DNA of 26,768 bases from a virus. A program made the position numbers and the translations under genes. The stretch is from positions 1-26,768 of IMG/VR virus record IMGVR_UViG_3300042308_000076; one strand, 5' to 3'. Shown here piece after piece: positions 25,383-26,643 of the stretch; positions within the stretch are counted from its first letter, which is position 1; each line of letters begins with the position of its first letter. The notes beneath the pieces are model-generated. The model was given only the letters and a program-made list of their open reading frames with translations, was not told where the DNA came from and did no database searches.

Positions 25383-25385
25383 AAT

Positions 25386-25515
25386 GTGCATTAAGGCGCA
25401 CTTTACCTGTTAATGTACGTTTTAATGTACATTATGACTACAAATTGTGCAATAGAAGGCACATTAAGCACTATGCAAAAACTGCAAAGTGTAAACTCAA
25501 ATGAGCATAATGTGT
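25386..25515 (+). repeat. Iteron-like cluster with palindromes
   Basis: The 161-base gap 25383-25543 contains at least five related copies of a word close to GTACATTAA on both strands: GTGCATTAAG (25386-25395), TTAATGTAC (25410-25418 and 25422-25430, period 12), GCACATTAAG (25459-25468) and CATAATGTGT (25506-25515). TAATGTACATTA (25423-25434) is a perfect 12-base palindrome. TGTGC/GCACA (25446-25450 and 25459-25463) and GTGC/GCAC (25386-25389 and 25398-25401) are inverted repeats. Candidate replication origin, operator or late-gene control region. Confidence 0.5.
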
Positions 25516-25543
25516 AAAATGTCCAACTTTTGATATTAAAAAC

Positions 25544-25969
25544 GTGACCAAGAACTTTACCCTCGCAGAACTTACTGCTACAAAAACAGGGCTTCCTAAC
25601 GCTTTACCCAAGCATTTGGAACCCAACCTCCGTGCGCTTGCAGAAAACGTCTTACAACCCACGAGAGATGCCTTAGGTGCGCTCAAAGTGACGAGTGCAT
25701 ACCGCAGCCCTGCGGTTAATAGCAAAGTGGGGGGAGCGAAGACCTCGCAGCACGTACAGGCTCAAGCTGCGGACTTGAAATGCGAAGCAGGCAACGATGT
25801 GTTGTTCCATTGGATTAAGGACAATTTAGACTTTGACCAACTCATTTGGGAATTTGGCTCTGATACTGCGCCATCGTGGGTTCACGTTAGTTATTCTAAT
25901 ACCAAGAACCGCAAACAAATCCTAAAAGCAGTAAAGCACAATGGCAAAACCAAATACCTCACCTTTTGA
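25544..25969 (+). CDS. M15-family peptidase endolysin
   Basis: GTG 25544 gives a 141-residue, single-domain peptidase of the M15 (D-Ala-D-Ala carboxypeptidase/VanY) type. The metal-binding and catalytic set is TSAYRSPAVN (50-59), SQHVQAQAADL with H70 and D77, the QLIWEFG segment with E103, and WVHVSY with H114. Such enzymes cut peptide links in peptidoglycan to release progeny. No signal peptide is present, so export depends on the holin. It follows the iteron-like gap and precedes the spanin-like gene. Confidence 0.88.
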   Translation: MTKNFTLAELTATKTGLPNALPKHLEPNLRALAENVLQPTRDALGALKVTSAYRSPAVNSKVGGAKTSQHVQAQAADLKCEAGNDVLFHWIKDNLDFDQLIWEFGSDTAPSWVHVSYSNTKNRKQILKAVKHNGKTKYLTF

Positions 25970-26614: not shown

Positions 26615-26643
26615 TTGACATACGCAAGTTCTTATGCTAATAT
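26615..26643 (+). promoter_or_regulatory. Sigma70-like promoter candidate
   Basis: TTGACA (26615-26620), 17-base spacer, TAATAT (26638-26643). The A-rich stretch just upstream (26597-26614) resembles an UP element. It lies 21 bases before the last gene. The form is the general sigma70 consensus rather than the Bacteroidota TAnnTTTG type. Confidence 0.5.

Follow-up and report, generated by a model that had tools for sequence, protein, structure and literature searches.

In the lysis module of one virus record, the endolysin gene is preceded by a noncoding spacer that contains two short dyads of the form GTGC-N8-GCAC, which start 61 bp apart. We are highly confident that this pair is real, that it is conserved, and that its preferred spacing is 61 bp. 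The window, i.e., the whole stretch of DNA analyzed here, comprises 26,768 bases of that record, which is itself partial. We lean, with slightly more confidence than doubt, towards reading the spacer as a recombining cassette with a paired operator near a promoter, to which a dimeric DNA-binding regulator would bind. The core of such a cassette would consist of the two dyads at 61 bp, which are separated and flanked by additional short dyads. Here, we infer protein binding, promoter activity, a direction of regulation, and a route of recombination: a putative dimeric protein, encoded by either the host or the phage, would bind both dyads and set the transcription of the downstream gene, in this case that of the endolysin, while the mosaic cassette would be gained, lost, and exchanged through recombination, with the lysin gene behind it being swappable.

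Dyads and short words of the lysis spacer

Judging from its relatives, the phage of the window is a Bacteroidota-type tailed phage. Its terminase, portal, tail protein, and M15-type endolysin were recognized by profile search; the portal shares 40% identity with that of Nonlabens phages P12024S/L, and relatives with overlapping contig ends (G009 and G011) are 30–31 kb long. The closest endolysins in bacterial and archaeal genomes are at most 52% identical and come mostly from Bacteroidota MAGs. As the preliminary description had stated, a noncoding spacer (25383–25543, + strand, 161 nt, 32% GC) splits a basic microprotein gene from the endolysin gene. It begins after the microprotein stop codon and ends with an A-rich leader, GATATTAAAAAC (25532–25543, + strand), immediately 5′ of the GTG start codon at 25544, from which the gene of the M15-type peptidase extends to 25969 on the + strand (phrog_894, E 1.4e-33; PF08291, 59.4 bits). 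Elsewhere in the window, a sigma-70-like promoter sequence, TTGACA-N17-TAATAT, whose second hexamer is preceded by TG, occurs at 26615–26643, in the noncoding gap after a spanin-like gene.

The pattern GTRC-N8-GYAC occurs at three sites in the whole 26,768-base window, and all of them (25386, 25415, and 25447) are located inside the spacer. Dyad C (GTGC-N8-GCAC, 25386–25401) is the first member of the 61-bp pair, dyad D (GTAC-N8-GTAC, 25415–25430) is a middle module, and dyad E (GTGC-N8-GCAC, 25447–25462) is the second member, which starts 61 bp after the start of C; successive dyad starts are thus 29 and 32 bp apart. The GTGC/GCAC inverted repeats noticed earlier therefore correspond to two GTGC-N8-GCAC dyads and one GTAC-N8-GTAC dyad. 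In 46 unique spacers collected through the endolysin, including that of the window, GTGC-Nn-GCAC was found 47 times with n = 8 and seven times with n = 17, and at no other n between 2 and 20. In every one of the 56 unique lysis spacers that contain two dyads, the starts of the last two are separated by 61 bp; in this count, the pattern permits variant right halves and the spacers are related to one another. The middle between the outer dyads varies, being occupied by D, by the TCGGA/TCCGA dyad B, or by neither.

The spacer had initially been described as an iteron-like cluster of related words on both strands, and the cluster itself is real: GTACATTAA occurs five times with at most one mismatch, whereas dinucleotide-shuffled versions of the spacer contain 0.2 on average and none of them (0/1000) reaches five. 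With up to two mismatches, there are five occurrences versus 1.55 in shuffles, and 23 of 1000 shuffles equal that number. When the word is left free, the best 9-mer family (at most one mismatch) has six members, which is matched by 13 of 500 shuffles, so that, with the choice of word allowed for, the clustering is significant, not extreme. The 12-base direct repeat is also present, as TTAATGTAC with copies at 25410 and 25422; across the window, however, this word has seven matches with at most one mismatch versus 6.9 expected, and thus only its clustering is unusual, not its number. The perfect 12-base palindrome TAATGTACATTA (25423–25434) was found as described and forms the right part of dyad D, but 102 of 1000 shuffles of the spacer also contain a perfect 12-base palindrome, which makes it weak evidence when taken alone. 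The combination that was to count against the cluster, i.e., words not conserved in relatives and equally dense in shuffles, was looked for and not found. It is the iteron frame that had to be abandoned. The copies are dyads and not a tandem array; only a single 12-base direct repeat was found where iterons would require tandem repeats near the helical period; and what stays constant is the distance of 61 bp between the starts of the outer dyads.

The 61-bp pair in other phages

The pair recurs in unrelated phages. An early gene led to two loci, L339 and L372 (the latter on a 119-kb contig), which carry the pair at 61 bp with other middles. Among loci not retrieved by the pair pattern, strict pairs, searched at gaps of 20–70 bases, occur at gap 45 only, which corresponds to the 61-bp spacing (22 distinct pairs in five clusters); many of these loci belong to the lysis family or were retrieved by the D or B core. 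A free-gap scan of viral contigs (gaps 38–52) matched at least 119 stretches, and the counts come from the 103 loci among these that were new to the set. Among the matches listed, AT-rich pairs (GC below 0.46) comprise 16 distinct pairs in six clusters at gap 45, versus nine distinct pairs in nine clusters at the other 14 gaps together, namely 1, 2, 2, 2, and 2 at gaps 41, 44, 46, 47, and 50. The 61-bp spacing is therefore strongly preferred, not absolute. When pairs of any composition are counted, gaps 45 and 50 have 19 each and gap 44 has 15 among the matches listed, those at gaps 50 and 44 being nearly all GC-rich. A separate fixed-gap scan yields lower bounds (at least the matches listed) and has no matched control gap.

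The position of the pair is intergenic. Taken together, the matches listed include 62 distinct low-GC pairs in 19 clusters, none of which lies inside a gene (0/19) or between convergent genes, while eight of nine GC-rich clusters lie inside a gene; these assignments were made with a crude gene caller, which labels the left gene of the window antisense, its true left gene being on the + strand. In the L417 family, two copies of the pair are found 307 bp apart, with a gene after each. A cultured carrier is Cellulophaga phage phi4:1, in which the 61-bp pair ends five bases before a tRNA-Ser gene (KC821632.1, 90198–90274; L549, 989–1065) and an annotated hypothetical gene of 34 codons overlaps the first dyad with its end. 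Phage phi17:2 matches this stretch at 99% in a BLAST comparison.

Among 395 genomes of the order to which the genome of L206 (a Flavobacteriaceae MAG) belongs, the pair at gaps 40–50 was matched in three, compared with one of 395 for the backwards control. One match is a GC-rich tandem repeat, one has a gap of 40, and one is AT-rich with a gap of 45; the last (L538) is placed among genes that look chromosomal from their open reading frames. By our estimate, three matches are about what chance would give, and hence they provide no evidence for a cellular version of the pair, which, as far as searched, is a phage feature. The tandem repeat (L537, genome G146) is a 31-bp GC-rich unit containing GTGC-N8-GCAC in a 0.6-Mb genome, and no likeness to the cassette was seen in it.

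A broader proposal, to which we give somewhat less than even credence, is that the pair represents a widespread cis-regulatory element of Bacteroidota phages, recognized by one conserved regulator (perhaps a global regulator of the host) and situated upstream of lysin, tRNA, and small early genes, the element being transferred as a cassette between unrelated phages in one group. That a single regulator serves all pair families belongs to this proposal and is less probable than action of the pair near a promoter.

A polymorphic lysis junction and shared cassettes

The lysis junction was surveyed in 77 relatives in which the match reaches the gene start, taken from the best 80 of at least 594; in the other three (L057, L077, and L079), the match stops short of it. 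Among these 77, the spacer is absent in 24, in which the genes abut or overlap (gap of −4 to 5), C-D-E is present in 25, the 61-bp pair without D in five, and other spacers in 20, while three have no microprotein. In total, 30 module orders, the empty one included, were counted in 78 unique combinations of spacer and lysin type. Near-identical cassettes precede three lysin types distinguished by sequence motif (e.g., L113 versus L029); two of these are M15 types, and one is read as an amidase from its motifs. The lysin is exchanged at the start codon, with L113, L170, and L163 being amidase-like by motif and L104, L105, and L082 carrying the second M15 type. In some relatives, cargo genes of 60 to 226 aa occupy the same junction; genes of 93, 60, and 226 aa were seen upstream of the endolysin in L006, L063, L043, L055, and L061. 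From their sequences, the 226-aa product of L061 and the 237-aa product of L168 look like homing endonucleases.

Such a junction could also be explained without any regulatory role, as a recombination scar or linker, i.e., a noncoding mosaic that only marks a hot spot of lysin and cargo exchange. The occurrence of empty, short, and long variants at a single junction, the number of module orders, the cargo genes at the same place, and the weak correlation between element and endolysin divergence (rho 0.18) are all in its favor. A scar, however, predicts neither constant half-sites nor a preferred 61-bp spacing in unrelated phages, nor an intergenic, non-convergent position, and the element diverges less than third codon positions (0.068 versus 0.18, 25 loci). 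We consider this explanation improbable. The best reading of the spacer in this phage group remains a mosaic cassette that is gained, lost, and exchanged.

The preliminary description had also proposed an origin of replication or an attachment or packaging region, in accordance with the clustered repeats in a noncoding gap. Polymorphism of the junction makes all three very improbable. In 12 of 12 empty-site records (six contigs of 28–31 kb and six fragments of 5–10 kb), no match to the element was found, including G009, whose ends overlap as in a closed circle; an iteron origin would be indispensable, and the same absence argues against an essential packaging site. In G004, the element lies near the maximum of cumulative GC skew and not at the minimum. 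An attachment site is opposed by the finding of a tyrosine integrase (PF00589) in none of ten records, with the controls detected in 14 of 14, in a search confined to the tyrosine type.

The cassette is shared between unlinked loci. A 27-mer of D matches 77 stretches of viral contigs, and 91 of 99 loci with this 27-mer adjoin an endolysin related to that of the window. The remaining eight comprise L113, with its amidase-type lysin, L089 and L106, in which the same lysis locus lies at a contig end, and five loci elsewhere; in these other phages, D is found at another locus, namely in L085, L097, and the 36–60 kb contigs L120, L143, and L152. The L120 cassette is 96–98% identical over 81–94 bases to those of the 32–43 kb records G004, G005, and G010, and 93% identical to that of G008, while the proteins of G001 common to these cassette-sharing groups are mostly 30–75% identical. 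The five scanned carrier records contain one cassette each, a second partial copy in G004 being due to its end overlap. This record (L175–L177) is a 43,350-base contig with a 135-base end overlap containing one mismatch and, from its sequence, is probably a complete circular map. A 231-base cassette stretch gave only two chance-level matches against 50,697 phage records, the exact pattern of the D core was absent from the collection of bacterial and archaeal genomes, and BLAST searches of the cassette and four pair families against named phages returned short weak matches or none.

Module A (CGTAACA..TGTTACG) and module B (TCGGA..TCCGA) are found again in the early regions of L168 and L165, close to a conserved early gene of 95 aa and together with dyads at 61 bp. 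An operator for a regulator of late lysis had been among the initial suggestions; the operator is what fits best, but a restriction to late lysis is not supported, as the same cassette also precedes other genes in other phages. Small proteins common to carriers exist, and one of them is also present in the non-carrier G016. A 178-aa product of L181 (17939–18475) with sub-threshold similarity to Sigma70_r2 (16.3 bits, cut-off 24) is a possible phage transcription factor.

The candidate promoter and related regulatory systems

Downstream of dyad E, the spacer contains a −10-like CATAAT box (25506–25511, + strand), for which we infer a promoter role; the G at 25505, just before the box, is 58 bp after the start of E. 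From the last dyad to a YATAAT box, distances of 28, 37, 57, 58, 88, 89, 90, 120, 133, 195, and 227 bp were recorded, with 58 in 33 of 55 counted spacers. Among the periods tested (5–20), the best is 10.5 bp (R 0.84, p 2e-4); the YATAAT box formed part of the search pattern. With near-equal distances merged, p is 0.002, and the inserted lengths relative to the modal distance alone give weaker phasing (p 0.06–0.14). Three early-locus contexts (the L120 group, L097, and L085) share a distance of 89 bp with other intervening sequence, and L044 has 70 bp (phase 7.0). In the prospective set, L339 is the sole new point, the four other loci being contigs counted before; its distance of 88 bp (phase 4.0) falls at the edge of the predicted 4.0–7.5, and it is homologous to the earlier early-locus cases. 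Several contexts carry more than one candidate box, and L165 has no YATAAT-type box after its second dyad. Phasing at 10.5 bp points to an element that acts from one side of the helix and, therefore, at the level of DNA. Promoter activity itself stays putative, given that a simple sigma-70 scan listed none within the spacer and that the −10-like boxes differ in place between pair families or are absent. A promoter between the two dyads was also considered; TATAAT-like boxes are present there, but their positions vary, and it is not claimed.

The dyads could alternatively act as RNA, forming two short hairpins (4-bp stems with 8-nt loops) in a 5′ leader or intercistronic region that control the stability or translation of the lysin message. 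This rival stays alive through the folding energy of the + strand, which is better than that of shuffles (z −3.07, 1 of 300; −1.98 for the − strand); in addition, a long C:D pairing belongs to the predicted + strand fold, and in some families the second dyad is near the start codon. The fixed 61-bp spacing with unrelated middles is, however, hard to explain for independent hairpins. Nor do the changed right halves opposite GTGC, as we read the half-site pairs, show a strand bias: a G-U pair is retained on the + strand by GCGC and GTAC and on the − strand by ACAC, ATAC keeps one G-U pair per strand, and GCTC and GAAC break the pairing, in totals that also contain unrelated positions. Rfam returned only three miRNA hits for the spacer, all below the gathering thresholds (27.3, 21.4, and 18.4 bits versus 88, 74, and 101). 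The long C:D hairpin was rejected as a conserved unit, as it is broken by C-arm variants such as ATTATATG and ATCGTGC. Overall, we regard an RNA element as unlikely, and action of the pair as DNA near a promoter as probable by a little.

If the pair is the address of one regulator, it marks co-regulated genes in many uncultured phages, and, if this is true, a 77-bp bait could serve to isolate one protein of the host or the phage. The existence of a cultured carrier, phi4:1, makes the proposal directly testable. The alleles of the lysis locus, which may be empty, short, or long, also form a natural series before exchangeable lysins that is useful for studying how lysis is tuned by phages.

Searches of the open-access literature, which leaves out most subscription journals, listed no account of paired GTGC dyads at 61 bp. 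Iteron origins are similar in that several related words occur in a short, AT-rich stretch of noncoding DNA; in contrast to these, the spacer has no equally spaced tandem array and is dispensable in relatives. Paired operators of dimeric repressors or activators include LexA-type 4-8-4 boxes and looping operators. Like them, the element described here has 16-bp dyads with 4-bp half-sites and an 8-bp center, and two similar dyads are found at a constant distance beside a gene start. The LexA box has CTGT, from which the GTGC half-site of the cassette differs, and a distance of 61 bp is tighter than looping normally needs.

The closest mobile regulatory cassettes are the promoter early stem-loops (PeSLs) of T4-like phages (Arbiol et al. 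2010 and Comeau et al. 2014, as cited in PMC4503421). A recurrent cassette of promoter and stem-loop defines them; the present one recurs across loci and phages, and the sigma-70 scan lists no promoter in it. Unlike PeSLs, it is characterized by a pair of dyads with a preferred distance of 61 bp, with no terminator shown, it is present once per record in the five scanned carriers, and it occurs in Bacteroidota-type phages. The portal of the window, nearest to that of the Nonlabens phages at 40%, and relatives of 30–31 kb likewise set it apart from T4-like genomes. What the two have in common is that short intergenic regulatory cassettes with a dyad or stem-loop accompany the shuffling of genes between phages.
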